A stretch of DNA of 64,000 nt, taken from positions 186,001 through 250,000 of the forward strand of contig JAJZRO010000001.1 of NCBI GenBank assembly GCA_021802645.1. Reading direction: 5' to 3'. Shown piece after piece: positions 5,682 to 21,431 of the stretch. Below the pieces are notes generated by a model. It had not been told where the DNA came from and searched no databases. It saw nothing but the letters and a program-made list of their open reading frames with translations. The stretch's first letter is position 1; each line of letters begins with the position of its first letter. A program made the translations under genes and the position numbers. This DNA comes from Deltaproteobacteria bacterium. Its GTDB lineage: Bacteria; Desulfobacterota; Desulfobulbia; Desulfobulbales; Desulfurivibrionaceae.

Positions 5682-6197
5682 ATGCGCTACCTTTCTGTAC
5701 CAATGCGTCTGGCAGCGATTTTCATCCTTGCCGGAACCCTGGCCGCAAACCCGGCCCTGGCCGAGAAGCCACCCTGGGCCGGCGGTGGCAAGAAAGGCGA
5801 AGAACAACCACGCGGAAGGTATGAGGAAAGAAGGGACTACGACCGCCGGGGGGGCGACGCAGACCGAAGGGAGCGCCACTACTTCACCGAGCGTCACCAG
5901 GGTGCCATTCATGAATATTACGCCGAGCAATTCCGGCGCGGCAACTGCCCCCCAGGCCTGGCCAAAAAGCACAACGGCTGTATGCCTCCCGGCCTAGCCA
6001 AGCAATGGGCGATCGGGCGGCCGCTGCCGGCGGGGGTTGTCTACTACGACCTGCCGCCCCGGGTCCTCGTCATGCTGGGACCGCCGCCGCCGGGATACCG
6101 CTTCGTGCGCGTGGCGCAGGATATTCTGCTCATGGCGATAGGAACGGGAATGGTCGTGGATGCTATTGACAACCTGAACTGGGAGTTCCGCCATTAA
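5682..6197 (+). CDS. Secreted RcnB/CigR-like protein
   Basis: 171 residues. The ATG at 5682 has AGGAGG upstream and opens a signal peptide ending near ANPALA. The mature part is Arg/Asp/Glu-rich and hydrophilic (residues 35-75), then contains CPPGLAKKHNGCMPPGLAKQW and a C-terminal VVYYDLPPRVLVMLGPPPPGYRF segment typical of RcnB-related periplasmic proteins. Members influence nickel/cobalt homeostasis or virulence regulation in enterobacteria; the role here is unknown. It is a single-gene unit between its own promoter and a terminator. Confidence 0.75.
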   Translation: MRYLSVPMRLAAIFILAGTLAANPALAEKPPWAGGGKKGEEQPRGRYEERRDYDRRGGDADRRERHYFTERHQGAIHEYYAEQFRRGNCPPGLAKKHNGCMPPGLAKQWAIGRPLPAGVVYYDLPPRVLVMLGPPPPGYRFVRVAQDILLMAIGTGMVVDAIDNLNWEFRH

Positions 6198-6229
6198 CGG
6201 AGCCGACACACCCCTTTTCCCGGATATCC

Positions 6230-6266
6230 AAAACAAAAGGCCCTGCTGCACAGGGCCTTTTGTTTT
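6230..6266. terminator. Bidirectional intrinsic terminator
   Basis: AAAACAAAAGGCCCTG pairs with CAGGGCCTTTTGTTTT around a 5-base loop, giving T-rich tails on both strands. It serves the RcnB-like gene and the convergent ParA-like gene. Confidence 0.9.
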
Positions 6267-6307
6267 GGTGTCCAACGGGTTCAAAAACCTACCTTAGAAA
6301 CAAGGGC

Positions 6308-7255
6308 TCAGGTATCGTTGACCACCTTTTTGACCAACGCTTCATAATCCTGCAAACATTTCGAGTCGGTACCCAAATCGAAGACGGTCTTCCCCCCTGC
6401 CGTATACTCTTTCAACTGACCGCTGTAATAGATCGGCGCACAGACGAGATCGCCATAGACATGCACGAACTTTTCATGGATATCGACCGCCTTCTTGACC
6501 CGCGGATCATAGAAGGTGGGCAGGATATATTTGAGCCGGCGCCCATCGACTAATTTGTCGATGGGATCAACAAGCTGGAGAAATTCACCAAATCCCTGTA
6601 CCGACATGACCTCCATGGAAACCGGGATGAGCAGTTCACGGACATAAAACAACACACTGACCGTAAGCGGATCCCATTCCGGTGAGGTGTCCACCAAGAC
6701 GTAGGCGAATTCCTTTTCGAGAGGGGCAAGGGTTCTATCGACAATCTGCACGCTCTGAGTGGCCCGGCCGGCGGCAAAACACTCCAGCCCGGCCAGCGCC
6801 TTGCCCCCCGCCAGCAGCCAGAGGTTCTCCCGCGCTTGGACCATGGCCTTGTCCGGCGGCACCGTGCCGTTGATCGCTTCGGCGAGCCCTCCTGGTGGCT
6901 TGACCCCCAAATACGGAGCTGCCTGCCCGTGCGGGTCGGCATCGACGAGCAACACCTTAAACCCGGCCGCAGCCAATCCGGCGGCAAGGGTAACCGCGGT
7001 ACTGGTCTTGCCCATGCCGACCTTGTTCAAGGAAATGGCAAGACGCCGCGGAGTTCGCTTGCCGGCGGGGGTCGCCTCGGACCGGGCTTCCGGCTGTCGC
7101 GAGGCGGATTCGTCTTCGAGCGGCAACGGGAAGGTGGCGCCGCATGCCTTGCAATGGGCCTTTCTGACCGTCGACTGGAGCTTTGCCCGGTCAACGCGGT
7201 ACTGCTTGTGGCAGTAAAGGCAGGTTATCACCATCTGGGAATCGTTGTTGGCCAA
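6308..7255 (-). CDS. ParA/MinD-like ATPase with N-terminal zinc ribbon
   Basis: 315 residues. Residues 8-48 form an MJ0042-type zinc ribbon (CLYCHKQY...CKACGATF). From residue 70 a ParA-type P-loop follows, with the deviant Walker A NKVGMGKTST (the signature lysine is kept but KGG has become KVG), VLLVDADPHG as switch region and YVLVDTSPEWD as Walker B. The start codon is TTG with GAGAGA upstream. It is the last gene of an operon with CheC, receiver and PAS proteins, so it may place or cluster a signalling complex rather than segregate DNA. Confidence 0.85.
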   Translation of the reverse strand: MANNDSQMVITCLYCHKQYRVDRAKLQSTVRKAHCKACGATFPLPLEDESASRQPEARSEATPAGKRTPRRLAISLNKVGMGKTSTAVTLAAGLAAAGFKVLLVDADPHGQAAPYLGVKPPGGLAEAINGTVPPDKAMVQARENLWLLAGGKALAGLECFAAGRATQSVQIVDRTLAPLEKEFAYVLVDTSPEWDPLTVSVLFYVRELLIPVSMEVMSVQGFGEFLQLVDPIDKLVDGRRLKYILPTFYDPRVKKAVDIHEKFVHVYGDLVCAPIYYSGQLKEYTAGGKTVFDLGTDSKCLQDYEALVKKVVNDT

Positions 7256-7286
7256 GGCTGTCTCTCGTGCTGCGATACGGGGCGGT

Positions 7287-7928
7287 TCAAAAATTCGCCA
7301 TGAAATTATTCAAGGCGGTACGCAGCCACGCCATGGAATCCTGGTTGGCAACCAGGAACAGGAACCCGCTGATATCCTTATCTTCGAAATGGAATATGGT
7401 TTTCATCAGGACGGCGGTCTTATCCCCCCCGTCAAGCGGCTGCGAAACTCCTTCCTTGGCAAGATTGTTGATGCCCACATGGGGGTTCAGCCGCGGCGGC
7501 GAATACGAAACCATGTCGCCGAGCAATTCGGCAACCTTGCCGACACAGGCGCCGATCAGGATGTTGCCCACCTCCAGCAAGGTTTCCCTTTCCAGCAAGG
7601 GGTTGTCTTCCTCGCCTTCCTCGTCAAAGAGGGTAACCAAACCCTTCTTGGCCGCAGAGGGAAAGGCCAGCACGGCCGAGCCGGTAAACTTTCCCCAGAA
7701 ATTCTGCTCGATGATGCTGAGGGCGTCGTAGATCTGTGTCTCTTGCTGGATCCGCTGCAACAGGCCATCCGCCTTCATGAGTTCAACCTGGGGGACGCTG
7801 AGCTCGATACGAATATCAATAACCCTGGCAAGATCGGCCGAGGCCTTACCAAAGGCAATATTCATCACTTCCTGGAGAATGGCGGCTTCATCGCGAGAAA
7901 AATTCTGTGTAGACGGTGAGCTAGTCAT
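7287..7928 (-). CDS. CheC/CheX-family phosphatase-like protein
   Basis: 213 residues. Two CheC active-site patterns with E-x-x-N followed 23 residues later by P are intact: EVMNIAFGKAS...VP and EVGNILIGACVGKV...PP. CheC-family proteins dephosphorylate CheY-type receivers, and a stand-alone receiver gene ends four bases upstream, so the partner is probably that protein. No CheA or methyl-accepting protein gene is nearby, so the pathway need not be chemotaxis. Confidence 0.85.
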   Translation of the reverse strand: MTSSPSTQNFSRDEAAILQEVMNIAFGKASADLARVIDIRIELSVPQVELMKADGLLQRIQQETQIYDALSIIEQNFWGKFTGSAVLAFPSAAKKGLVTLFDEEGEEDNPLLERETLLEVGNILIGACVGKVAELLGDMVSYSPPRLNPHVGINNLAKEGVSQPLDGGDKTAVLMKTIFHFEDKDISGFLFLVANQDSMAWLRTALNNFMANF

Positions 7929-7932
7929 AGGT

Positions 7933-8307
7933 TTACCCTTCCAAGATTCGTGCCGCTGTGGTTAAAGCCTCCTGAATCGACTCGGCGGACGGCGGTTTCG
8001 CAAGAACCAGGTCGGCCCCCAACTCCATGACCTTGGCAACCGTCTTCTTCTGGATATCCGAGGTAAGCACCACCACCACGGCCTTGCGGTCCTCTTTTTT
8101 TATGGCCTCCAACGCCCCGAAGCCGTCCATGACCGGCATGGTCAAGTCGAGCAGGGTAAGATCTGGCCGCACTTCTTTAAATTTCTGCACCCCTGCCTGC
8201 CCATCGCCGGCCTCCGATAATTCAAAATCATGGTCCTTGGGCAAACACTTTTTCACGATCGCCCTGGCCACCGGCGAATCGTCAACGATTAAGATCTTCT
8301 TAACCAT
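7933..8307 (-). CDS. Stand-alone CheY-like response regulator
   Basis: 124 residues from the ATG at 8307, which has AAGGAG upstream; an in-frame ATG 12 codons earlier lacks a site. Receiver landmarks are ILIVDDS, phospho-acceptor TLLDLTMPVMDG, Thr in VVLTSD and Lys in VLAKPPS. There is no output domain. It sits between PAS and CheC genes in one operon. Confidence 0.92.
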   Translation of the reverse strand: MVKKILIVDDSPVARAIVKKCLPKDHDFELSEAGDGQAGVQKFKEVRPDLTLLDLTMPVMDGFGALEAIKKEDRKAVVVVLTSDIQKKTVAKVMELGADLVLAKPPSAESIQEALTTAARILEG

Positions 8308-8342
8308 AAAGAGTCTCCTTGCAACGAGATGCGCAAAAGCCA

Positions 8343-8948
8343 TTATCTCTTGTTGATAACGGAAAAAATCTCATCAATCTGCGCCTCGATGAGCGCGTCG
8401 ATATTCTTTTGCCCCTTCTGGGACGGGGCATACTTGGCAAGCATTTTATCGCCGGAGGTGGAAAGCAATTCCGCAAGCACCGATTGGACCGGCGGGGGCA
8501 TATCCCCTTGGTCCGCATTTTTTTCCAACAGGGAAAAAAGCGCCGAAGTGAGCTTGGTTTCGTAAATATGGGACTCGGTCACGTCTTTGACCGTCACATA
8601 GACATATTCGATACTGCTATTCTCACGCAGCGGGCCCATGACGCAATTCTGCTGCATGTAATCAACTTCGTTGGCAAAACTACTGGCCGGCTTAAAGGGG
8701 AAAATATAATCGTAGAGCTTCTGCGGGAAGAAATAGCAGTTGCCAAAGGTGAGAATGGCCTGAAAGTTCCTGATAAACTTTTTGTTGTTGAGGTGGGGGA
8801 AAAAATCGAAAAGCGAGGCGCCTTTGATGCGCTGGGGAGGGATACCGCTGTGCGACGCGAGCCAGCGATTCCAGTAACGTACCCTGCACTCTTTGTCCAG
8901 GATCAAGAGCCCTATGTCAATAACGTCCAAAATCTGGGCGAGTACCAT
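8343..8948 (-). CDS. PAS-domain protein
   Basis: 201 residues. Residues 1-130 form a PAS fold (ILDVIDIGLLILDKECRVRYWNRW, then YVYVTVKDVTE at the end). The last 70 residues are helical with no kinase, GGDEF or EAL motif. It is first in the PAS / receiver / CheC / ParA operon and may sense a ligand or act as a scaffold. GGAGAG precedes the start codon. Confidence 0.8.
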   Translation of the reverse strand: MVLAQILDVIDIGLLILDKECRVRYWNRWLASHSGIPPQRIKGASLFDFFPHLNNKKFIRNFQAILTFGNCYFFPQKLYDYIFPFKPASSFANEVDYMQQNCVMGPLRENSSIEYVYVTVKDVTESHIYETKLTSALFSLLEKNADQGDMPPPVQSVLAELLSTSGDKMLAKYAPSQKGQKNIDALIEAQIDEIFSVINKR

Positions 8949-9018
8949 TTCGTGCGGCTCTCCCTCCTGGCGCGCAAAGGTAAAGAAGCAGAGGCGGTAA
9001 TTTCAATATGTTACGATT

Positions 9019-9047
9019 ACTATGTAATAGCAAAACCCTCTGGCCAA
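9019..9047 (-). promoter_or_regulatory. Possible sigma-70 promoter of the PAS-CheC-ParA operon
   Basis: On the minus strand TTGGCC and CATAGT are separated by 17 bases, each matching consensus at four of six positions, about 70 bases before the PAS gene. This is moderate evidence only. Confidence 0.35.
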
Positions 9048-9209
9048 TACTAGTTTTTTTGTCTCCAGAAACCCACCAGCAGACCAAACGACCGCAGTTG
9101 ACCGAGCGCCTCGACTCTGCACTGCAAGGCAACCCGTCGCAACACCGGTGCAGGAATTCCATTCGTAAAGAGTGGGGCGCTTTGCCGCTATCCCACCCCT
9201 GCCTGCTCC

Positions 9210-9527
9210 TCAGCCGAAACGGTTCGGCTCCCTGCCCTCCTGCACGCACCAGATAATCAGCACAACCCAACCGACCACCGGAATGAGGCCAATCAACTGC
9301 CACCACCCGCTCCGGTCCGTGTCGTGCAGTCGTCGCGCACATACCGCCAACGAGGGCAACAGGGTCCCCAGCGAAAAGAGCATGGACAGCATGTGACTCA
9401 CGATACTGATCGCCATCCCGGCCAGCAGGATGAAAAGGAACCACCACCAGAATTCAGGCCGCGTTGCCCGTCCATTAAAGTCGGCATACTTGGCAAAACA
9501 GACCTTGATCGATTCAACGAATGTCAT
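9210..9527 (-). CDS. DUF805 inner-membrane protein
   Basis: 105 residues from the ATG at 9527, preceded by GGGGAGGAGGGGG. It shows the DUF805 layout: an N-terminal CFAKYADFNGRATRPEFWWW, hydrophobic helices, then CARRLHDTDRSGWWQL and a last helix. Function of the family is unknown. An upstream in-frame Met at 9587 adds 20 unlikely residues. Confidence 0.88.
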   Translation of the reverse strand: MTFVESIKVCFAKYADFNGRATRPEFWWWFLFILLAGMAISIVSHMLSMLFSLGTLLPSLAVCARRLHDTDRSGWWQLIGLIPVVGWVVLIIWCVQEGREPNRFG

Positions 9528-9677
9528 ACCCCCTCCTCCCCTGTTGTGAGTGTATCCCAAAACACCATGCCGGAAGCCAATGGGCATTTCCTCTTTTGAT
9601 CGTCACGGTATCACAGACGAACGCCCATATTCCACGGGGAAATTATCGCGTGGCACGCTTTGCGAAAGGGGGCAACA

Positions 9678-9714
9678 AAACAGCCCGCGATCCGTTGCCG
9701 GATGCGGGCTGTTT
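9678..9714 (-). terminator. Terminator of the tRNA-Ser pair
   Basis: AACAGCCCGC and GCGGGCTGTT form a 10-11 bp stem. On the minus strand it is followed by TTTTGTTG and lies 37 bases beyond the tRNA-Ser(GCU) 3' end. Confidence 0.75.
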
Positions 9715-9751
9715 GCATTACGATCACCGGTTCTCCCGGCGTTATGTGGGG

Positions 9752-9845
9752 TGGCGGAGAGAGAGGGATTCGAACCCTCGGTAGGACTTTTGGTCCTACA
9801 CTCGCTTAGCAGGCGAGCACCTTCGGCCTACTCGGTCATCTCTCC
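9752..9845 (-). tRNA. tRNA-Ser (anticodon GCU)
   Basis: Minus-strand 94-mer including an encoded CCA. The acceptor stem is GGAGAGA/TCTCTCC with G discriminator; the anticodon loop CTGCTAA sits within CTCGC/GCGAG; there is a long variable arm (TAGGACC...GGTCCTA type) as in class II tRNAs, and the T-loop is GGTTCGAATCC. Confidence 0.97.
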
Positions 9846-9867
9846 GCAAGATGCAAACTGGTTTGGG

Positions 9868-9953
9868 TGGCGGAGGAGGTAGGATTCGAACCCACGGAAC
9901 TTTCGTTCAACGGTTTTCAAGACCGCCGCCTTAAACCACTCGGCCACTCCTCC
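9868..9953 (-). tRNA. tRNA-Ser (anticodon UGA)
   Basis: Minus-strand gene with encoded CCA. The acceptor is GGAGGAG/CTCCTCC; the anticodon loop CTTGAAA lies between GCGGT and ACCGT; there is a class II variable arm and T-loop GGTTCGAATCC. It lies 22 bases upstream of the GCU tRNA-Ser in the same direction, probably co-transcribed. Confidence 0.97.
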
Positions 9954-10021
9954 TCCAATGTGCCACCTTATCTACCATCTCGGGCCAGGGCTGTCAATCA
10001 GCTTGTCCCGGCCCAACCCGA

Positions 10022-10969
10022 TCACCACCAGCGCCACAGCGCGACAATGAGGGTGATGGCCACCACCATGCCGAGATTCATGTAGGCCATGAAATAGAAA
10101 AGTCGTTCCACCGATGATTTCGCCGGGCCCGTCTCCGCGGCGAGCAGCCGGCCGACCCTGGGCATGGCCAATACCTTCTCCTCGCCGTGGGGCGCCTGGG
10201 AAAGAACCGCGGAAAGATCCATGCCGGCCTGATGGCGCGCCATGTGGGCACCCTGACGCCAGAATTTGCTGGCAGTCACGTCGTACACCACGCCCTGGTA
10301 GGCGATATACGCCGGCCGCCCTTCCTTGCCGTCAAAGGCGGCCAGTTGGGCCAGGGTCATGTCGCCCCCGGCCGCAGGCACGACCGCCTCTTTCCTCTTG
10401 AGCCGCGGGCCGATGAAGAAGACCACCACCAGCGCCGAGAGGACCATGATGCTGAAGAGAGCGATCTTGAGCAGCAGCAGGACGCCAAAACGGGTGGTGG
10501 TCAAAAAAGCGAGCGAGGGCACGCGGTAGGCCATGAGAATGGCGCCGGTGACCGCCATCACCGCCATGGAAACGAGACCGACCCGCATCTCGCCGCGCGG
10601 CAACCCCTTGGCCGCATAGGCCGGCTTCAGGATGAGATGCACATAGAGGATGGTGCCGAACCAGAAGATGGCGGTGAGCAGATGGACAAAGCCCGCCACC
10701 AGCCGGATCAACCGAGGGCTTGGGGCGGGGGTCTCTTTGCCAGACGCGCCGGGCTTGGCCGCCACCACGGCGGCAAACTGCATGCCCACCTTGGTCAGTT
10801 CCCCGCCGCCACCCGGGTCCAGATGGCAATCGCCGCAGGCCCGGCCGGTGCAGGCGGCATACTGCTCAGTCGCTTTCACCGGCCGGACCGACCCAAGGCC
10901 GACGAAAGCGACCAATATTGCCAGCAGAAACAACCAGCCTCTCCTTGTGCCGTGTGACTGCGCCATCAC
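10022..10969 (-). CDS. Membrane fusion: c-haem motif, CopD-like helices, cytochrome b5-like domain
   Basis: 315 residues. A signal or anchor helix (residues 11-30) is followed by CGDCH, a single c-type haem motif; then four helices around residues 88-195 resembling the CopD/DUF4149 type; then a segment of about 75 residues, QLAAFDGKEGRPAYIAYQGV and on to HMARHQAG, resembling the small cytochrome b5-like haem domain of bacteria; then a C-terminal helix. It overlaps radA by ATGA although its role looks respiratory rather than repair. Redox or electron-transfer function is inferred. Confidence 0.75.
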   Translation of the reverse strand: MMAQSHGTRRGWLFLLAILVAFVGLGSVRPVKATEQYAACTGRACGDCHLDPGGGGELTKVGMQFAAVVAAKPGASGKETPAPSPRLIRLVAGFVHLLTAIFWFGTILYVHLILKPAYAAKGLPRGEMRVGLVSMAVMAVTGAILMAYRVPSLAFLTTTRFGVLLLLKIALFSIMVLSALVVVFFIGPRLKRKEAVVPAAGGDMTLAQLAAFDGKEGRPAYIAYQGVVYDVTASKFWRQGAHMARHQAGMDLSAVLSQAPHGEEKVLAMPRVGRLLAAETGPAKSSVERLFYFMAYMNLGMVVAITLIVALWRWW

Positions 10970-12324
10970 TCTCCCCCCACCATGGCCAATGCCTCGCCAA
11001 GTTTCCGCACGCCGCGGATCTCCATGCCCTTGATCCCCTCCCTGGGCACGTTGGCGGCCGGCACCATGGCCCGTTTGAAGCCGTGCTTGGCCGCCTCGCG
11101 CAAGCGCGCCTCACCGTTGGGCACCGGCCGGATCTCGCCGGAGAGGCCGATTTCGCCGAAGACTACCAGATCCTGCGGCAGGGGCTGGTTGTTGAGACTG
11201 GAGACGACGGCCATGAGCAGGGCGAGGTCCGCCGCGGTCTCGTCCACCCGCACCCCGCCCACCACGTTCAGGAAGACGTCCTGGTTGTAGGTGGCAACCC
11301 GGCCGTGGCGGTGCAGCACCGCGAGCAGCATGGCCAGGCGATTCTGCTCGAGGCCCACTGCCACCCGGCGCGGCATCTCGGCGTGGCTCGCATCGACCAA
11401 GGCCTGCAACTCCACCAGCAGCGGCCGGCTCCCCTCCCACACGGCCAGCACCACGCTGCCCGGCATGGGTTCCTCAAGGCGGGAGAGGAAGATGGCCGAG
11501 GGGTTCTTCACCTCCTTCAACCCCTTGTCGGTCATGGCAAAGACGCCCAGCTCGTTCACTGCGCCGTAGCGGTTTTTCACCGCCCGCATGATGCGGTAGC
11601 GGCTGTCGAGGTTGCCCTCGAAATAGCAGACCACGTCGATGATGTGTTCCAAGACGCGGGGGCCGGCGAGATCCCCGGACTTGGTCACGTGGCCCACCAG
11701 GAAGATGGCGGTGTTGCTCTGCTTGGCAAACTGGGTAAGGAGCGCGGCGGATTCCCGCACCTGGCTCACACTGCCGGGCGCGGACTGGACATTGGCACTC
11801 TGCATGGTCTGGATGGAGTCGATCACCATCACCGCCGGCTTTTCCTGCTCGGCCACCGCGCAGATGCCCTCCACCGAGGTCTCGGCCAGGAGCAAGAGAC
11901 CATCCTGCGGCAGATCAAGGCGCCGGGCGCGCATGGCGATCTGCTGGGGCGACTCCTCGCCGGTGACGTAGAGCACCTTGTGGCTGCGGCTCAGGGTGCA
12001 GCAGACCTGCAGGAGGGCCGTGCTCTTGCCCACGCCCGGGTCGCCGCCGATGAGCACCACCGAGCCCGGCACCAGGCCACCGCCCAAAACGCGATCAAGC
12101 TCGTGCATGCCGGTCCCGATCCGTTCGGTCCGGTCGAGGGCCACGCTGGCCATGGGCTGGACGGCGGCCAAGGCCCCGGTGTAGCCGCCAAAGCGCGGGG
12201 CGACTTTCGGCGCGGCCTGCTCGCTCAAGGTGTCCCAGGCGCCACATTCGCCGCATTGTCCCGCCCACTTGCCAGTGGTCGCGCCGCAGGCGCTGCACAC
12301 GAAGATCTTTTTTTCCTTGGCCAT
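10966..12324 (-). CDS. radA: DNA repair protein RadA (Sms)
   Basis: 452 residues, the usual length. An N-terminal C4 zinc finger (CSACG...CGECG), RecA-like Walker A GGDPGVGKST, the RadA-specific KNRYG motif, and a C-terminal Lon-protease-like domain are all intact. RadA is a branch-migration helicase acting in recombinational repair. It lies 9 bases after hemW and overlaps the next gene by 4 bases. Confidence 0.97.
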   Translation of the reverse strand: MAKEKKIFVCSACGATTGKWAGQCGECGAWDTLSEQAAPKVAPRFGGYTGALAAVQPMASVALDRTERIGTGMHELDRVLGGGLVPGSVVLIGGDPGVGKSTALLQVCCTLSRSHKVLYVTGEESPQQIAMRARRLDLPQDGLLLLAETSVEGICAVAEQEKPAVMVIDSIQTMQSANVQSAPGSVSQVRESAALLTQFAKQSNTAIFLVGHVTKSGDLAGPRVLEHIIDVVCYFEGNLDSRYRIMRAVKNRYGAVNELGVFAMTDKGLKEVKNPSAIFLSRLEEPMPGSVVLAVWEGSRPLLVELQALVDASHAEMPRRVAVGLEQNRLAMLLAVLHRHGRVATYNQDVFLNVVGGVRVDETAADLALLMAVVSSLNNQPLPQDLVVFGEIGLSGEIRPVPNGEARLREAAKHGFKRAMVPAANVPREGIKGMEIRGVRKLGEALAMVGGE

Positions 12325-12333
12325 ATTCCCCTC

Positions 12334-13515
12334 TCAGACCAATTCCGCCAGCACCTGATGGGCCACCGGCAAGGCTTGCTCGCTCAGGCGCATCGAGTCG
12401 TCGTTCAAGATGAGCAACCCCCGTTCCACCAACCTCTCCACCGTTGTGCCATAATAGCCGCGCGGCGTCAAACCGAAGCGCGCTTCGAGCTCGGCAAGGG
12501 AAACCCCTTCGAGCAGGCGCAACCCCATGATCACCGTCTCGCGAAAACGGGCATGGAGCCCCAGGGATTCGGCCTCAACATAGGGTGGCTCACCTTTGCC
12601 GACCAGTTCGGCGTACCGGGTCGGGTCGGCCACGCTCTTGAGGCGCAGACCGGAAAGGCAGGAGACCGCCGCCGCGCCCAGGCCCACGTAGGAACCGTTA
12701 TGCCAGTAGTTCAGGTTGTGACGGCACTCGCACCCCGGCCGGGCAAAGTTGGCGATCTCGTACCGTTGGTACCCAGCCCCGGCCAGCAGTTCCTGGGCCT
12801 TGGATTCCATCTCGGCCATGGCATCGTCGTCGGGCAAGGTAACCCGCCCCTCTTCCACCTCGCGCGCCAATGGGGTCCCCGGCTCCACCATCAGTTCGTA
12901 GAGGGCCAGATGCTCGGGGGAAAAGTCCACAGCGATTGTAAGCGACTCACGCAGGTCCGCCAGGGTCTGCCCCGGCAGGCCGTAGATCAGGTCGAGATTC
13001 AGGTTCTCGAAGCCGGCCGCGCGGGCGGCCTGGATCGCGGCCAGGGCCTCGGCCTGGGTGTGGCTGCGACCGATGGCAGAAAGAAGCCGGTCACTGAAGG
13101 ACTGCACCCCCACGCTCAGCCGGTTCACCCCGGCCGCCCGGAGTTGCGCCAGTTTTTCACGGGTCACGGTGTTGGGATTCGCCTCCACCGTGATCTCCGC
13201 ATCAGGAACAAAAGCGAAGCGAGCCAGCAACTCGCGGATCAATCCAGCCAACTGCTCGCCTGCGTAGATGGTCGGGGTGCCACCGCCGATGAAGAGGGTA
13301 GCAAACTGGCGGGCCTGCACCCAGTCCGAGGCCGCGATGCGACTGGCCTCTTGGGCGCAGGCAGCCAGATAGTCCGCCGGCGGCGCAGGGAGGCAGGGAT
13401 AGGAGGTAAAGGCGCAGTAGCCGCACTTGGAGCGGCAGAAGGGGATGTGGACGTAGAGGCCCGGCGGCCCTTCGCCGGACTCCGGGGTGATCGCGTCCGG
13501 CGGCGGGACGCTCAT
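12334..13515 (-). CDS. hemW: HemW-like radical SAM haem chaperone
   Basis: 393 residues from the ATG at 13515, which overlaps the radC stop as ATGA; an earlier in-frame Met lies inside radC. It has the radical SAM cysteines CRSKCGYC preceded by LYVHIPF, FIGGGTPT, and the C-terminal HemW domain. HemW delivers haem to apo-cytochromes; it was long misannotated as an oxygen-independent coproporphyrinogen oxidase, and it lacks the longer N-terminus of true HemN. Confidence 0.9.
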   Translation of the reverse strand: MSVPPPDAITPESGEGPPGLYVHIPFCRSKCGYCAFTSYPCLPAPPADYLAACAQEASRIAASDWVQARQFATLFIGGGTPTIYAGEQLAGLIRELLARFAFVPDAEITVEANPNTVTREKLAQLRAAGVNRLSVGVQSFSDRLLSAIGRSHTQAEALAAIQAARAAGFENLNLDLIYGLPGQTLADLRESLTIAVDFSPEHLALYELMVEPGTPLAREVEEGRVTLPDDDAMAEMESKAQELLAGAGYQRYEIANFARPGCECRHNLNYWHNGSYVGLGAAAVSCLSGLRLKSVADPTRYAELVGKGEPPYVEAESLGLHARFRETVIMGLRLLEGVSLAELEARFGLTPRGYYGTTVERLVERGLLILNDDSMRLSEQALPVAHQVLAELV

Positions 13516-14246
13516 CGCCCGCCAAGGAGCGGCTGGCACTCCTGCCGGATGGTCGTCATCAGGCCGTGGTCGGCAAAGCTGTAGGTCTCGCCATTGCCGC
13601 CGATAATGACGTGATCGAGCAACTGGATGTCCACCAGGGCCAGGGCAACAAAGAGGCGGCGGGTGAGTTCGCGGTCCTCTGCCGACGGCTTGAGGTTGCC
13701 GGAGGGATGGTTGTGCGCCACCACCAGGGCGGCGGCATGGTGATCGAAGGCGCGGCGGATCAACTCGCGGGGGTAGACCGTGGTGCTGCTGATGGAACCT
13801 TCGGCAATGGTCCCGCTGCCGAGGATGCCAAAGGCGGCGTCGAGGAAGATGGCGACAAAGGTCTCGCGACCGAGGTCGCGCATGGCATGGACCAGATAGT
13901 CCGCCACCTCGCGGGTGGAGCGGAGGTATTCCTTGCCGACCAGCCGTTCTTGCAGATAACGGCGGGCCACGCCGTGGACAAAGTGGAGGGCAAAGCTGTT
14001 GGTGGGACCGATGCCGGCCACCTGCTCCAGTTCCGCCTGGGAGGCTTCAAGGGCCTTGCTCAGAGAGCCGAAGCGGGCAAGAAGGCTGCGGGCCATCTCC
14101 TTGCAGTCCTTACGCGGGGTACCCAGGGTGAGCAGCAGTTCCACCACCTCGGCCTCGTTGAAGGCGTCGATGCCGCGGGCGAGGAACTTCTCCCGCAGCC
14201 GCTGCCGGTGCCCTGTCCCCTTCTGCTGCCAGTCGGTTTTATCCAT
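13512..14246 (-). CDS. radC: RadC family protein (JAB/MPN metalloprotease fold)
   Basis: 244 residues. Helix-hairpin-helix DNA-binding segment near residues 58-80 (VAGIGPTNSF) and the JAMM zinc motif HNHPSGNLKPSAED near residue 180 are present. Despite its name, its repair role is doubtful. Its ATG is only 8 bases from a terminal repeat of the inserted GxxExxY cassette and no good ribosome site is visible, so the insertion may have altered its translation. Confidence 0.93.
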   Translation of the reverse strand: MDKTDWQQKGTGHRQRLREKFLARGIDAFNEAEVVELLLTLGTPRKDCKEMARSLLARFGSLSKALEASQAELEQVAGIGPTNSFALHFVHGVARRYLQERLVGKEYLRSTREVADYLVHAMRDLGRETFVAIFLDAAFGILGSGTIAEGSISSTTVYPRELIRRAFDHHAAALVVAHNHPSGNLKPSAEDRELTRRLFVALALVDIQLLDHVIIGGNGETYSFADHGLMTTIRQECQPLLGGR

Positions 14247-14254
14247 GGATACTC

Positions 14255-14282
14255 GCCACGAAAACCACGAAAGACGCGAAAG
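14255..14282. repeat. Left inverted repeat of the GxxExxY cassette
   Basis: GCCACGAAAACCACGAAAG and on to ACGCGAAAG, 28 bases. It matches the repeat at 14660-14688 in opposite orientation at about 26 of 29 positions (first 14 bases identical). It lies immediately outside the 3' end of the GxxExxY frame. Confidence 0.8.
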
Positions 14283-14658
14283 TTAAAAAACGAATCGCTT
14301 CACGGTGGCTTTAGGATAGGCGAAATTCACCAGCAGGCCAACCTTTTTCCCGCTAGCCTTCAGGTAATTGAGAATCTGGGGCCTCGTGCGCCTTATGCAC
14401 TTTGTCCTGGGCCTTAAGCTCGATCACCACCCGGTCATCCACTATCAGGTCGGCAAAATACTCGCCCACGGTTTCGCCTTTATAAGTGACCGTCAACGGC
14501 ACCTGATTCTGCACGGCAAACCCTTGGGCTACCAGTTCCTGGCGCAAGGCATTCTTATAGACCTTTTCAAGAAAGCCATGCCCCAATTCCCGATAGACCT
14601 CGTAGACACACCCGGTGATGGCATACACCAACTCTTTTTCCCAAAGTTCGGCATCCAC
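14283..14658 (-). pseudogene. GxxExxY family gene, frameshifted
   Basis: The frame starts at a GTG at 14658 and encodes VDAELWEKELVYAITGCVYE, the signature GFLEKVY (G-x-x-E-x-x-Y) and ADLIVDDRVVIELKAQDK, typical of this roughly 125-residue PDDEXK-like family. After HEAP it hits an early stop. Shifting by one base at the run of four G (14378-14381, plus strand) restores QILNYLKASGKKVGLLVNFA to a stop at 14283, the expected C-terminus. So one extra base in a homopolymer breaks the gene, unless it is a sequencing error. Family function is unknown. Confidence 0.85.
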
Positions 14659-14659
14659 C

Positions 14660-14688
14660 CTTTCGTGTCCTTTGGTGGTTTTCGTGGC
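14660..14688. repeat. Right inverted repeat of the GxxExxY cassette
   Basis: Read on the minus strand: GCCACGAAAACCACCAAAGG then ACACGAAAG. Its outer edge coincides with the last base of the gatB stop codon, so the cassette begins exactly where gatB ends. Confidence 0.8.
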
Positions 14689-16121
14689 TATGCAGACAAC
14701 GCCTTCACGAAAAGTTCGTTGGCCAGCTGCGGGTTGGCCTTGCCGCCGGTCTTTTTCATGAGCTGGCCGACAAAGAAGCCCATCACCTTGGTCTTGCCCT
14801 CGCGGAACTGCTGGGCCTGCTCCGGGTTGGCAGCGATGATCTCGCGGACAATGGCCTCCAGCTCCCCGGTGTCGCTCATCTGCACCAGGTTCTTTTCCTT
14901 GACCACTGCCTCCGGCTCCTTGCCGGTGGCCATCATCTCCTCGAAGACGGTCTTGGCGATCTTGCCGCTGATGGTGCCCTGCTCCAGCATGGTCATGAGG
15001 GCACCAAGCTGTTTCGGCGTGACGAGGCACTGGCTGAGGTCGATGCCCTCCTCGCCCTTCAAGGCGCGCATCAGTTCGGTCATGATCCAGTTGCCGAGCT
15101 TCTTGGCCTGGCCGCATTCCGCCAGGGCCTGCTCAAAGTAGTCGGCCAGTTCGCGGGAGGAGGTGAGCACCTCGGCGTCCGCCTCGGGGAGCCCGAGCTG
15201 CTCGACAAAGCGCTTCGTGCGCTCGTGGGGCAGCTCCGGCATGGCGGCCTTCATCTCGGCCACCCACGCCTCGTCAAGCACCACCGGCACCAGGTCCGGA
15301 TCCGGAAAGTAGCGGTAGTCGTGGGCCTCCTCCTTGGAGCGCATGGACATGGTCACCCCGCGGTCGGCATCCCACAAGAGGGTCTCCTGCACCACTGCCT
15401 CGCCGTCCAGCAGCAGGTCGCGCTGACGGCGCTCCTCGTATTCGAGCCCCCGCTGCACGTTGCGGAAGGAGTTCATGTTCTTGAGCTCGGTGCGGGTGCC
15501 GAACTTCGTCTCGCCGCGCGGCCGGAGCGAGATGTTGGCATCGCAGCGGAAGCTGCCCTCCTGCATGTTGCCGTCGCAGATGTCGAGGTAGCGCACAATG
15601 GCGTGGAGCTTCTTGAGATAGGCTGCCGCCTCCTCGGGGGAGCGGATGTCCGGCTCGCTCACGATCTCCAACAGCGGCACGCCGGTGCGGTTCAGATCGA
15701 CATAGCTCCTGGGTTCCCGCTCGTCGTGCACCAGCTTGCCGGCGTCCTCCTCCATATGGATGCGGGTGAGGCCGATCTTGCGGTGCTTGCCAGCCACCTC
15801 GATCTCGATCCAACCGTGCTCGGCAATGGGCAGTTCGAACTGGGAGATCTGGTAGCCCTTGGGCAGATCCGGGTAGAAGTAGTTCTTGCGGGCGAACTGG
15901 TTGCGGAAGTTCAAGGTGCAGTTGGTGGCGAGCCCCAGCTTGATGGCGAACTCCACCACCTTGCGGTTCAGCACCGGCAGCACGCCGGGCATGCCGAGGC
16001 AGACCGGGCAGGTGTTGGTGTTGGGCGGCCGGCCGAACTCGGTGGTGCAGCCGCAGAAGATCTTGCTGTTGGTCTTGAGCTGCGCGTGCACCTCAAGGCC
16101 GATAACGGTTTCAAAGTCCAT
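14688..16121 (-). CDS. gatB: Asp-tRNA(Asn)/Glu-tRNA(Gln) amidotransferase subunit B
   Basis: 477 residues starting [17 protein letters not shown], with [20 protein letters not shown], the GatB zinc site region, and the C-terminal YqeY-like tail domain. The enzyme converts misacylated Glu-tRNA(Gln) or Asp-tRNA(Asn). The ATG at 16121 fits the family start; the longer open frame upstream is noise. It lies 11 bases after the RdgC-like second gene. gatA and gatC are not in the window. Confidence 0.97.
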
Positions 16122-17638: not shown

Positions 17639-17716
17639 GTCCCCATCGTCTAGTCAGGTCCAGGACACCGGCCTTTCACGCCGGCGACACCGGTTCAAAT
17701 CCGGTTGGGGACGCCA
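17639..17716 (+). tRNA. tRNA-Glu (anticodon UUC), integration target
   Basis: 78 bases with encoded CCA. Acceptor GTCCCCA/TGGGGAC, anticodon loop CTTTCAC, T-loop GTTCAAATC. The 44 bases from the anticodon loop to CCA recur exactly at 20342-20385, marking this gene as the attachment site of the following islet; the gene itself stays complete. Confidence 0.97.
17673..17716 (+). repeat. attL-type direct repeat (tRNA-Glu 3' half)
   Basis: 44 bases identical to 20342-20385, from CTTTCAC through CCA. The sequence beyond differs, so the identity stops precisely at the tRNA 3' end. Confidence 0.9.
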
Positions 17717-17725
17717 TACAAACTC

Positions 17726-17762
17726 AAAGGGGCTACGCTGTGAAGCGTAACCCCCTTTTTTG
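17726..17762 (+). terminator. Terminator after tRNA-Glu
   Basis: AAGGGGCTACGC pairs with GCGTAACCCC across a 6-base loop, then TTTTTT. It stops tRNA transcription before the islet genes and is convergent with the BrnA-like gene. Confidence 0.85.
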
Positions 17763-17780
17763 TTCCTCGCCCCCTTCAAA

Positions 17781-18074
17781 TCACGCCGATGACTTGTGTT
17801 CCTTGAGCCACTCTCGCAACACGTCATTGATGCGGGTCTGCCAGCCGCGCCCCATAGCCCGGAACGCCTCCACCACTTCCGGAGCGAGACGGATGTTGAC
17901 CGCCTCCTTGGCCGGACGTTTCCCTGGTCCGCGTTGACCCGGACGGCGCTTGGGCAGCACCGCCACCAATTCCGCTGGCAATACTTCTGCGGCGGGTTTG
18001 AAATGTTTGAAGTCTTCTGTGGTGAGTTCGCGGACCTCGCCGTTTTTGTCAGTCAGGGGTGAGCGCTTTGCCAT
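17781..18074 (-). CDS. BrnA-family antitoxin-like protein, without BrnT
   Basis: 97 residues from the ATG at 18074 (GGAG upstream). The C-terminus AVNIRLAPEVVEAFRAMGRG with QTRINDVLREWL is the ribbon-helix-helix of BrnA, which represses its own operon and neutralises the BrnT ribonuclease. No BrnT frame is recognisable in the 172 bases upstream or elsewhere in the islet. Its base composition is closer to the host than that of the next genes. It may be a lone regulator or the remains of a toxin-antitoxin pair. Confidence 0.75.
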   Translation of the reverse strand: MAKRSPLTDKNGEVRELTTEDFKHFKPAAEVLPAELVAVLPKRRPGQRGPGKRPAKEAVNIRLAPEVVEAFRAMGRGWQTRINDVLREWLKEHKSSA

Positions 18075-18246
18075 AACTTCTTGACTCCCTGGCGTTTGCT
18101 TTCCGAAATATGGGGAGTGTCCCTGTTTTTCTGCGCGGGAAAGGGTTTCAAGCAAATCGTCAGTAAAACAAGCAGTGCGTTGGTAGAAGATAGCCCAAAG
18201 AGGCGGCTTACCCTGAGCCCATTTGTCAATGACAAGCTGAGACACA

Positions 18247-19146
18247 CTAAGAAACTATCAGCAATTCATCAAGACATGGTGGTTTTTTTCCGCCACAAAT
18301 GAATTCCGAAATAACAGATGGGGGTTTTCTCTCACAACCTCCGGTCATCAATCGGAAATCAATAGCATCAGTTAATCTATTACGCCTGAGATCCCTTGGC
18401 TGGCAACAATTTTTGTATTGCTCTGAACCACCACACCCACAGTATTCGTCTTCACGAATTTCCAATATTCGTTCATATGGATGATGCGCAACCTGATAGC
18501 CTGGCCATCGACCTAGAAATTCCAAATGGAGGTGACGTACAGCCCAAAGAGTATATATATCGAGAAGCCCAACGATGGGATCTCGTAATGTCCAAGTTTC
18601 ATCAGATGGCTCAAACGCACAGATGGAGCCATCTGTAAAATTAGTATGACGAGGTCCGATCCATAAGGGAATGCCGCTGAATTCATCGACCCAAAAGCCC
18701 CACCCTCGGACAATAAAAGGCCACCTGAACGAGATTCCAACAAGAAAAATCGCCTTCCGCAAAGAAGCAGGCAACAGAGCGCTCTCTGTTAAAACCCATA
18801 ACCCGGTTTCCTCTCTCCAGGACCGGGTATCCGGGTAGGCCTGTGACAATAAAATTAAATCCTTTTCACATTTTTGTTTAAGACCTGCGCTGAGGACCGA
18901 TGGGGCGGTATAGGGCGATCGGCGCCATTGTGTGGCCCATTGCCATTGTGGGTCCCACCACCATCGTGTGAGTTCTTGCCATTGTGGTGCGGTTTGTCTT
19001 TTTCTTTGTCGTTCATTGTGTTGCCCCGAGCCCAATGTTGTTGAATGGTCGGAATTCGTGTTGGGCACCACTATTCCGCCGTTTTTAACCGATGGGAAGA
19101 TGTTCCTGTCAAGCTGGTTACCTATCTTCTCTAAAACTTCCAACAT
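18247..19146 (-). CDS. E2 (ubiquitin-conjugating)-like protein with SEC-C zinc motif
   Basis: 299 residues; ATG at 19146 follows GGGGGAGAGG. Residues 164-190 read GPRHTNFTDGSICAF then W185 and DP, matching the E2 active-site pattern H-x-N...G-x-I-C...W: H167, N169, G173 and candidate catalytic C176. Residues 236-248, CGCGGSEQYKNCC, are a SEC-C zinc motif. Residues 52-75 are Trp/Gln-rich and are encoded by short CCATTGTGG-like repeats. No E1 (ThiF) or JAB peptidase gene is adjacent. It is divergent from a BrxR/CapW-like regulator. The E2 call is from motif reading only and needs a structure or profile test. Confidence 0.6.
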   Translation of the reverse strand: MLEVLEKIGNQLDRNIFPSVKNGGIVVPNTNSDHSTTLGSGQHNERQRKRQTAPQWQELTRWWWDPQWQWATQWRRSPYTAPSVLSAGLKQKCEKDLILLSQAYPDTRSWREETGLWVLTESALLPASLRKAIFLVGISFRWPFIVRGWGFWVDEFSGIPLWIGPRHTNFTDGSICAFEPSDETWTLRDPIVGLLDIYTLWAVRHLHLEFLGRWPGYQVAHHPYERILEIREDEYCGCGGSEQYKNCCQPRDLRRNRLTDAIDFRLMTGGCERKPPSVISEFICGGKKPPCLDELLIVS

Positions 19147-19190
19147 GCCTCTCCCCCTGCGGTCTTCAGTGTAAAATATATCCTGTCAAT

Positions 19191-19219
19191 ATAATAATCA
19201 CGAATACTTTTTATGTCAA
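19191..19219 (-). promoter_or_regulatory. Strong sigma-70 promoter of the E2-like gene
   Basis: On the minus strand TTGACA (19219-19214), 17-base spacer, TATTAT (19196-19191), 45 bases before the ATG. It is among the best -35/-10 pairs in the window, so expression probably depends on repression. Confidence 0.75.
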
Positions 19220-19258
19220 GATAAAGATTTTATGGAAACAAAATAGCCATAAAAAATG

Positions 19259-19279
19259 AATACAAATTCACTTTGTATT
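19259..19279. promoter_or_regulatory. Candidate operator of the WYL regulator
   Basis: AATACAAA and TTTGTATT form a perfect 8-base inverted repeat around TTCAC, midway between the divergent genes. BrxR/CapW proteins bind such palindromes as dimers near their own promoters. The site is 53 bases before the WYL gene and 40 bases behind the -35 of the E2-like gene. Confidence 0.5.
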
Positions 19280-19332
19280 GTGGTATGTGTAAAAAATAAA
19301 CACCCATTTGGCCACACAGGAGGAAACAATCT

Positions 19333-20220
19333 ATGCGATTGGGCGTACGCAAAAGAATGGAATTTATAGAGGCGCGACTATATTGGGAGGGCCGTATTAG
19401 CAGAAAGGATCTGGTTGATTTTTTTGAAATTTCTATACCGCAAGCGACAAAAGATATTAAGGAGTACAGCGAAAAAGCTCCTGACAATATTCGCTATGAC
19501 CAGAGCGTGAAACACTATATCGCAACAGAAAACTTCACCCCAACAGTCTCCACCCCTTCAAGTGAGGACTACCTAACTCGTTTACGTCTTCTTCCGGGCA
19601 AAAAAGACGCCACGAAATTTTTTAACAGTGGTTCCATTCCACCCTTTTCAGAAATTCCTAAATTCCAAAGGAGTGTTGATAAAAATGTGCTCAAACCACT
19701 TCTGCGATCTATCCATGATAAACAGGCCGTAGAAGTAAACTACCAATCAATGAGTTGTCCCGAGCCCGAACTTCGCTGGATCACTCCCCATTCTCTTGGA
19801 TGCGATGGTTTTCGTTGGCATGTTCGCGCATTATGCCACCGCTCGAGTATGTACAAAGACTTTAATCTTGGAAGAATATTGTCAATAACACGTACAAAAA
19901 ATGACAAATTTGATCATTCTATTGATTATGAATGGAATAATGAAATCACTATAAAAATAGCGCCAAATAAAGGATTATCGCCGGGCCAAAGAGCTTGCAT
20001 CGAAAGAGACTATGGAATGAAAGATGGGGAAATATCTTTAGAGATAAAGGCAGCTTTTTTTTATTACTTCAAAAAAAGATTTGGCTTTGGAGTAGATCAC
20101 GACAAGTCTCCAGGCAATGAACAACAGATAATTTTATTAAACCATGATGAAGTTAGCGCAAAAATTGATTTACTACAGTCAATGTCAAAAAAGAAAATAT
20201 GGCAATTGCGCACAGCATAG
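19333..20220 (+). CDS. BrxR/CapW-type WYL-domain transcription regulator
   Basis: 295 residues. AGGAGG precedes the ATG. An N-terminal winged helix (RKDLVDFFEISIPQATKDIK) is followed by a WYL domain with LRWITPHSLGCDGFRWHVRA and KDFNLGRILSI, then a WCX-like C-terminus. This layout is that of BrxR and CapW, repressors found beside BREX, CBASS and other phage-defence genes, thought to respond to a nucleotide or nucleic-acid cue. It is AT-rich and divergent from the E2-like gene, its likely target. Confidence 0.85.
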   Translation: MRLGVRKRMEFIEARLYWEGRISRKDLVDFFEISIPQATKDIKEYSEKAPDNIRYDQSVKHYIATENFTPTVSTPSSEDYLTRLRLLPGKKDATKFFNSGSIPPFSEIPKFQRSVDKNVLKPLLRSIHDKQAVEVNYQSMSCPEPELRWITPHSLGCDGFRWHVRALCHRSSMYKDFNLGRILSITRTKNDKFDHSIDYEWNNEITIKIAPNKGLSPGQRACIERDYGMKDGEISLEIKAAFFYYFKKRFGFGVDHDKSPGNEQQIILLNHDEVSAKIDLLQSMSKKKIWQLRTA

Positions 20221-20341
20221 CATCATCCACCCAGAGCTTTGGGCTGCAAGTGGGCTTTTACGGTTTCCAAAGAAGGTATTCTCTGGTGCCTGACAGATGT
20301 AACTAGCTGAAAAGATTGGGTGGCATACGAAATAGGGCACT

Positions 20342-20385
20342 CTTTCACGCCGGCGACACCGGTTCAAATCCGGTTGGGGACGCCA
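20342..20385 (+). repeat. attR-type direct repeat (displaced tRNA-Glu 3' half)
   Basis: Exact 44-base copy of 17673-17716. The 5' half of a tRNA is missing, so this is not a functional tRNA; it is the original 3' end displaced by integration. Confidence 0.9.
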
Positions 20386-20395
20386 CTGAACATGC

Positions 20396-20429
20396 AAGGG
20401 AATCAGCCAGCCGGTTGCTTCCCTTTTTT
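20396..20429 (+). terminator. Probable original tRNA-Glu terminator
   Basis: AAGGGAA pairs with TTCCCTT over a 16-base loop, then TTTTTT, 11 bases after the displaced tRNA end. It overlaps the 3' end of the convergent WYL gene. Confidence 0.55.
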
Positions 20430-21431
20430 GTTGCCCGCGGCCGGAACCCCTCCATAGCATGCCGCCATGCGGCGGATCTCTGTCTGCACTGCGGCGATCA
20501 GCTCCTGCGGCCCCAGCACCGCCACCCCCGCCCCCCACGAGAGCACCCAGCGTTTGATGGCCGCCAAATCGCCTCCCGGCATAGTCAGGGTCACGCTGCC
20601 GTCACGGTGTGACTTGAGTTGCTGCTCCGGGTGCCAAACCCGCTCCAGCACGTAGGGCGCCGCAGCGGCGGCAAAGCGCAGCCGCACCCGGTATTGCCCG
20701 GTTCCCCGGCCCAGCCCAAACCCTTGGGCCACCACGCTGGCCGGATCGAAATCCGCCGGTATCATGAAAGAATCGGAGAGCACCACCACCTCGCTCACCC
20801 GCGATAAAGCAAAGCTGCGCACCGCCCGTCGCAGGTGGCAGTAGCCAAGGAGATACCAGGCGCCCTGAAAACGCAGCACATGGTAGGGGTCCACCTGCCG
20901 CTTCTCCGGTTGGCCGGCGCCGGGTTTACGGTACCCGAGGCCAAGGGTCCGACTCTGGGTGAGCCCGCCAGCCACCGCCTCCCATACCGCCGGGTCGATA
21001 GTGCTCTGCTGCTCCGGCACCACCGAGATGCGGCTGTCGAGCCAGGCAGCGTCGCAGGAAACCCGCTCAGGCAGCGACTGCTCGATCTTGCGGAACAGGG
21101 CGGCCAGCTTGGCATGGATCGGGGTGTTGCGGTAGTGCTCCAGCCCCTTGTGGGCGATGGCCAGGCCGAAGAGGTCGCCCTCGTTCAGATGGATGGCCGG
21201 CAGAGCGTAGCTTTCCTCGCTGTAGAAGTAGCCCTTGCGCCGGCTATCGTAGGCGATGGGCGCCTCCCAGTGGAGCCGCAGATAGTCGATGTCGCGCAGG
21301 ATGGTCTTGGTGCTCACCTCGTATTCGGCCGCGAGAGTCGTGCAGCTGGCGAGCCGCTGGCTTTGCATGCCGCTGCGGATGGCGCGGTCGATGAAGAGCA
21401 GCCGGGCGAGCTGCGACTTATTTTCCACCAT
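20403..21431 (-). CDS. YafY-type WYL-domain transcription regulator
   Basis: 342 residues. An N-terminal DeoR-like helix-turn-helix ([20 protein letters not shown]), a WYL domain ([20 protein letters not shown], then [11 protein letters not shown]) and a WCX domain are present. It lies just outside the tRNA islet, has host-like composition, and is of a different subfamily from the islet regulator. GGTGAGG precedes the ATG. A 14-base palindrome 52 bases upstream may be its operator. Confidence 0.9.

Follow-up and report, generated by a model that had tools for sequence, protein, structure and literature searches.

The window analysed here is a stretch of 64,000 nucleotides; all coordinates are positions within it, and strands are given relative to it. 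Beside a tRNA-Glu gene lies a short islet that contains a BrnA antitoxin-like gene, a gene for an E2-like protein with a second gene nested inside it, a divergent CapW regulator, and nothing else. The features of the locus are:

17639-17716: tRNA-Glu gene
17673-17716, plus strand: left repeat, 44 bp, attL-like, an exact repeat of the tRNA-Glu 3' end
17781-18074, minus strand: BrnA antitoxin-like gene, islet cargo (Pfam BrnA_antitoxin, 6.1e-23)
18247-19146, minus strand: E2-like protein with SEC-C motif, 299 aa (H167, N169, C176, W185; SEC-C C236/C238/C247/C248; core at about residues 88-235)
18855-19016, minus strand: gene nested within the E2 ORF and read in the +1 frame; its 53-aa product is basic and Pro/Gly/His/Asn-rich, with a position and motif shared by all five full-length members of the family
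19191-19219, minus strand: sigma-70 promoter predicted for the transcript of the E2 and the nested peptide, TTGACA-17-TATTAT, 11 of 12 consensus positions matched (prediction by consensus only)
19228-19254, no strand: another inverted repeat of the divergent promoter region, TTTTATGG...CCATAAAA, with 8-bp arms and an 11-nt spacer
19259-19279, no strand: 21-bp palindrome, AATACAAATTCACTTTGTATT, candidate CapW operator, with exact 8-bp arms and the size of known CapW sites
19333-20220, plus strand: CapW/BrxR-type WYL transcriptional repressor, 295 aa, divergent (Pfam WYL, 2.3e-9)
20342-20385, plus strand: right repeat, 44 bp, attR-like, an exact copy of 17673-17716

The islet proper (17717-20341) is framed by the two exact 44-bp direct repeats, between which the G+C content is 0.42-0.45, compared with 0.62 for the window. 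No integrase is present inside the islet. The original prediction had named the stretch 17717-20385; the islet itself ends at 20341, positions 20342-20385 being the right repeat. In a genome of the same family (G718), identical repeats frame other modules: one consists of IS630 and a RelBE-like pair, and another is a stretch that includes Cas9 and Cas1. The tRNA-Glu site is therefore an integration hotspot, and the mobile nature proposed for the islet is supported. Serial modules with copies of the 44-bp tRNA end in between were observed at this site (window 17639-20387; L065 and L066), with Cas9-Cas1-Cas2 or IS630/RelBE in the same-family genome. Two relative loci with other cargo and no E2 gene also have a BrnA-type sequence behind this repeat. 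BrnA, earlier listed as a possible companion, is thus cargo of the site and was ruled out as partner of the E2-like gene. An in-frame extension of 57 codons (18075-18245) lies ahead of the likely BrnA start and ends 2 nt from the E2 stop codon. Directly outside the right repeat is a second, different WYL-type regulator (20403-21431), which is kept at the same site in relatives.

The rightward regulator of the islet aligns over nearly its whole length (residues 2-274) with CapW from S. maltophilia (7tb6; phmmer 3.3e-56). It also matches other CapW-type solved structures (4e-54 and 4e-50) and BrxR (7t8k; 1.6e-43). Judged by these alignments it is CapW, in agreement with the divergent BrxR/CapW-type WYL regulator that had been predicted. 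We know of no case in which a CapW/BrxR protein controls a gene of this E2 branch. Neither of the two intergenic inverted repeats overlaps the predicted -10 element of the E2 promoter, so that both are candidate operators at most. CapW acts as a repressor of immune operons in its neighbourhood, whose promoters contain the palindromes to which it binds (PMC9122588), and both CapW and CapH+CapP respond to single-stranded DNA (PMC13373217).

The leftward protein contains HTNFTDGSIC at residues 167-176, with W185 downstream, which had been read as the active-site pattern of a ubiquitin-conjugating E2 preceding a SEC-C zinc motif. The search for homologues covered genome contigs, plasmids (queried with full-length sequences) and sampled prokaryote genomes, and few members are known. 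The full-length set comprises five proteins: the window copy, one from an Acidiferrobacterales MAG (L001), and three from plasmids of Sulfitobacter (L008), Rhizobium etli (L009) and Sinorhizobium sojae (L010). Identity in the alignment with these four homologues is 36-50%. In it, H167, T168, N169, F170, D172, G173, S174, C176, A177, P180 and W185 are invariant in all five members, as are the four SEC-C cysteines. Both motifs are thus borne out, and the active-site motif is not a chance pattern. Rhizobium etli CIAT 652 pC (L026 3974-4323) retains no more of the E2 gene than a decayed C-terminal piece split over two frames; this remnant and similar partial matches in R. phaseoli were left out of the analysis.

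No direct Pfam or NCBIfam match to an E2 family was found for the window protein, and the matches of single members to PADLOC E2 models, which lie over the core, are weak (L008 with PDLC00869, E 0.0018). Matches to PDLC00872 turned up in 130 of 139 genomes, and almost all of them involved SEC-C and nothing else; similarity confined to SEC-C was discarded as evidence for an E2, and the core was therefore tested without it. A family profile search of genomes led to a distant relative, the E2 of L028. The SEC-C-free core profile matches this protein with 29 bits (best of 2000 shuffles, 8.8), and the protein itself matches PADLOC CBASS E2 models (3.9e-10). Aligned by hhalign with an E2 set, the family core scored 96% probability with L028 included in the set and 73% (E 3e-5) with L028 left out. 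Searches with PDLC00869 and the PF14461 family in phylum samples returned nothing. AlphaFold2 models from two-sequence input (pLDDT 32 and 35) were too poor for use, and the helix, four strands, helix order that they show, as in UBC, is unreliable. As far as profile comparison can place it, through the SEC-C-free core to L028 and on to the PADLOC models, the window protein belongs to the prokaryotic E2-like (UBC) superfamily, as predicted.

The relatives lie near defence genes, as the original prediction had anticipated. Gabija is found near the E2 gene in L008 (GajA 2e-240, GajB 2e-221), a PDC-S06 gene in L009 (1e-197), a complete type II CBASS in L010, and a TIR/APAZ-type protein with a short Argonaute (pAgo) in the distant L028. 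An HTH and ImmA/IrrE regulator (CapH/CapP-like) stands beside the E2 gene in L001, L008, L009 and L010, the L001 regulator matching the capP model at 2.5e-7. A GHKL ATPase and STAS-type pair, CapK/CapS-like by domain order and not by model, precedes the distant E2 genes of L028 and L058. Apart from these, the neighbourhoods of the relatives showed no conserved partner for the E2 gene. Of the defence module that had been proposed for the window, the Cap-type regulators and the defence neighbours are observed, and it is these that suggest the defence role itself.

In L028, GHKL, STAS-type, 50-aa peptide, E2/SEC-C, TIR/APAZ-type, short pAgo and NTPase genes follow each other in one apparent operon (6075-15976), apparently an E2 beside a SPARTA-like system. 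L058 (5286-9875) combines the GHKL/STAS-type pair with a ThsB-type TIR protein, E2/SEC-C and a patatin-type phospholipase, with no cyclase in view. Small basic proteins with similar ends (SGRFVT and TGRFMD) are encoded near E2/CBASS genes in L008 (8876-9091) and L069 (1065-1238), and the Vibrio one matches phrog_12550.

The most unusual part of the locus, and its main novelty, is the nested gene, which the first reading had overlooked. The Trp/Gln-rich N-terminal region that it had described (about residues 44-97) is not conserved among the E2 proteins and proved to be an out-of-frame reading of the nested gene. In all five members the nested ORF starts with an ATG at nt 131-149 of the E2 ORF and closes at the same place (nt 289-292). 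The peptides, of 47-53 aa, share the pattern DPxP...GxGPPxGKGRP...GRPxPxHxSSA, with the window copy the most divergent. Pairwise similarities among the nested peptides add up to 602, compared with a mean of 240 (sd 27, max 371) in 3000 trials in which synonymous codons of the E2 frame were permuted. When the same test was slid along the gene, z was 15.7 at the nested segment, 8.4 and 12.1 in overlapping windows, and no higher than 2.5 in the rest of the gene, whichever frame was tested.

The nested frame is much better conserved than the E2 frame in the overlap. Between the window and L001 genes, mismatches in the E2 core number 42/21/79 over E2 codon positions 1/2/3, favouring position 3. In the overlap they number 35/12/15, and E2 position 1 corresponds to nested position 3; counted by nested codon positions 1/2/3, mismatches are, for example, 14/17/35 and 15/17/34. 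The permutation tests take four divergent genes as independent, an assumption of which this switch in codon position is free. Resampling of nested codons predicts that the five genes together would have about 21 stops in the E2 frame, and none is observed. Because the nested frame is conserved and the E2 frame is kept open, both frames are maintained; by these substitution patterns, the overlap region is dual coding.

A Shine-Dalgarno sequence precedes the nested start in most members (AGGAG at 7 nt in three of five, GGAG in one, weak in the window copy), and a Shine-Dalgarno site of 5 or more is found at 3 of 71 other internal ATGs. The annotation of R. etli pRetNXC12d calls the nested ORF (WP_157700430.1) and the C-terminal part of the E2 (WP_157700429.1) as two hypothetical proteins; neither the overlap nor the full E2 ORF is recognised, and the E2 gene is cut short. 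Searches of viral contigs and phage records gave no homologue, either for the E2-like protein or for the nested peptide. The peptide has a mostly polar composition and is probably disordered. As its ends are not glycine, ubiquitin-like C-terminal conjugation seems unlikely. L028 has a separate Pro/Gly/His-rich ORF of 50 aa with an AAGGAG site, about 10 nt ahead of the E2 ORF, and the presence of a peptide gene just ahead of that E2 favours a peptide-E2 pair. The L028 peptide does not resemble the nested peptides significantly in sequence (P 0.12), and it was rejected as their homologue.

We hypothesize that the locus encodes an inducible two-protein module, consisting of the E2-like enzyme and the nested peptide under CapW. 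We hold this proposal as a whole tentatively, and with a little less than even confidence. The locus probably constitutes an immune or stress module of two proteins that annotation has missed, and its likely function is that of a damage-induced E2 with a co-encoded small partner. In the window strain, CapW would repress the divergent promoter and release it on sensing single-stranded DNA from damage or infection. One transcript with overlapping frames would then yield two products: an E2-like enzyme with a conserved N-terminal segment, flexible linker, UBC-like core with Cys176 and SEC-C zinc knuckle, and a basic peptide of 47-53 residues that is rich in Pro, Gly and His and for the most part disordered. 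Translation of the latter would begin by internal initiation, about 130-150 nt past the E2 start, so that both proteins would be made together.

The E2 core, with Cys176 intact, may form a thioester or serve as a protein-binding UBC domain. Most likely the enzyme would operate with no dedicated E1 or ubiquitin-like protein, Cys176 acting on a cellular or phage protein, and for this reason we liken it to the E2-only proteins of type II-short CBASS (L040, L041, L042). The nested peptide is most likely a dedicated partner of the E2, as an adaptor, inhibitor or substrate, roles that sequence cannot separate. With five full-length members and the distant L028 as the only relatives found, the proposed partnership rests on co-encoding. 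An anti-phage effect may be the outcome. We speculate further that the locus is a complete E1- and ubiquitin-free conjugation-type immune system on one short transcript, in which overprinting ties the E2-like enzyme to a peptide dedicated to it, as partner or substrate, so that horizontal transfer cannot separate the two; this extended version is possible, though doubtful.

Several other explanations have to be considered. The free E2-like protein might be toxic, with the nested peptide binding and silencing it, and induction through CapW tipping the balance towards abortive infection. Such a toxin-antidote pair would be compatible with synthesis from one transcript, with a tight inducible repressor, which is typical for abortive systems, with a disordered and basic peptide like small antidotes, and with an islet in a tRNA hotspot that has TA genes in relatives. 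However, E2-only proteins of CBASS modify or regulate a partner and do not kill, and the nested peptide lacks similarity to known antitoxins; we consider this explanation unlikely. We give slightly less credence, and regard as distinctly unlikely, that the protein is a degraded or orphaned CBASS or Pycsar E2, whose targets in trans would be cyclases or partners belonging to other systems, with the nested ORF as a small regulatory leader gene. The closest named relatives are indeed CBASS E2 models, an E2/SEC-C protein is present in a Pycsar-type locus, and the L010 gene adjoins a complete CBASS. Yet the active-site residues are fully conserved in all five members, the constant unit is the E2 with its divergent regulator while neighbours vary, and a SMODS-family cyclase (PF18144) was not matched in the window genome, whereas positive-control genomes gave matches.

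It is very unlikely that the protein has a housekeeping or mobile-element role with no link to immunity: SEC-C motifs are common and have many unrelated matches, but CapW and CapH/P-type regulators and immune neighbours recur in four independent loci. Least probable of all is that the conservation of the nested frame reflects a conserved RNA or DNA element, or a programmed frameshift site, of non-coding nature. The evidence for dual coding is computational and the start-site signal is weak in the window copy, points that would suit such an element; an excess of mismatches at nested codon position 3 is unexpected for it, and the ATG and the end of the ORF are at the same place in every member.

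If the nested peptide is the partner of the E2, as the two-protein module proposes, the locus would illustrate how E2-like immunity can dispense with E1, ubiquitin-like protein and cyclase, a question raised by the E2-only systems. To our knowledge, a conserved protein wholly nested in an immune enzyme gene is rare in bacteria. Such proteins are easily overlooked, as shown by the pipeline that split the R. etli E2 gene into two hypothetical proteins.

A solitary E2-like effector, which the original prediction had regarded as new, has precedents. Type II-short CBASS includes E2-only proteins (controls L040 and L041), for which PADLOC has separate E2 models (among them PDLC00876, PDLC00869 and PDLC00872), and these have, like the window protein, an E2 core and neither E1 nor JAB. 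Some of the proteins covered by the models also end in a SEC-C-like segment, and Cap-type regulators lie upstream in controls L040 and L042. In type II-short CBASS, however, the E2-only gene shares its operon with a CD-NTase and an effector, neither of which is present at the window locus. By inspection, no nested gene was seen in the three E2-only controls (L040, L041, L042). A Pycsar-type plasmid locus of Chryseobacterium likewise encodes a solitary E2-like protein with SEC-C (WP_181715770.1), but this protein is distant in sequence, lies behind a nucleotide cyclase and a Pycsar effector, and lacks the N-terminal segment that carries the nested ORF.

Cap2/Cap3 of type II CBASS and the Bil and Bub operons share the E2 chemistry, but have an E1 and usually a peptidase, and Bil and Bub also a ubiquitin-like protein. 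The window locus has none of these: no E1, JAB or other peptidase, and no nucleotide cyclase, is found there, and the single ThiF of the genome is located outside the islet. The earlier reading that E1 and JAB partners are missing locally is thereby supported. Bub operons are also controlled by CapW, CapH+CapP or CapK+CapS (PMC13373217), and the window regulator resembles CapW/BrxR WYL repressors in its full-length sequence match and its divergent placement.
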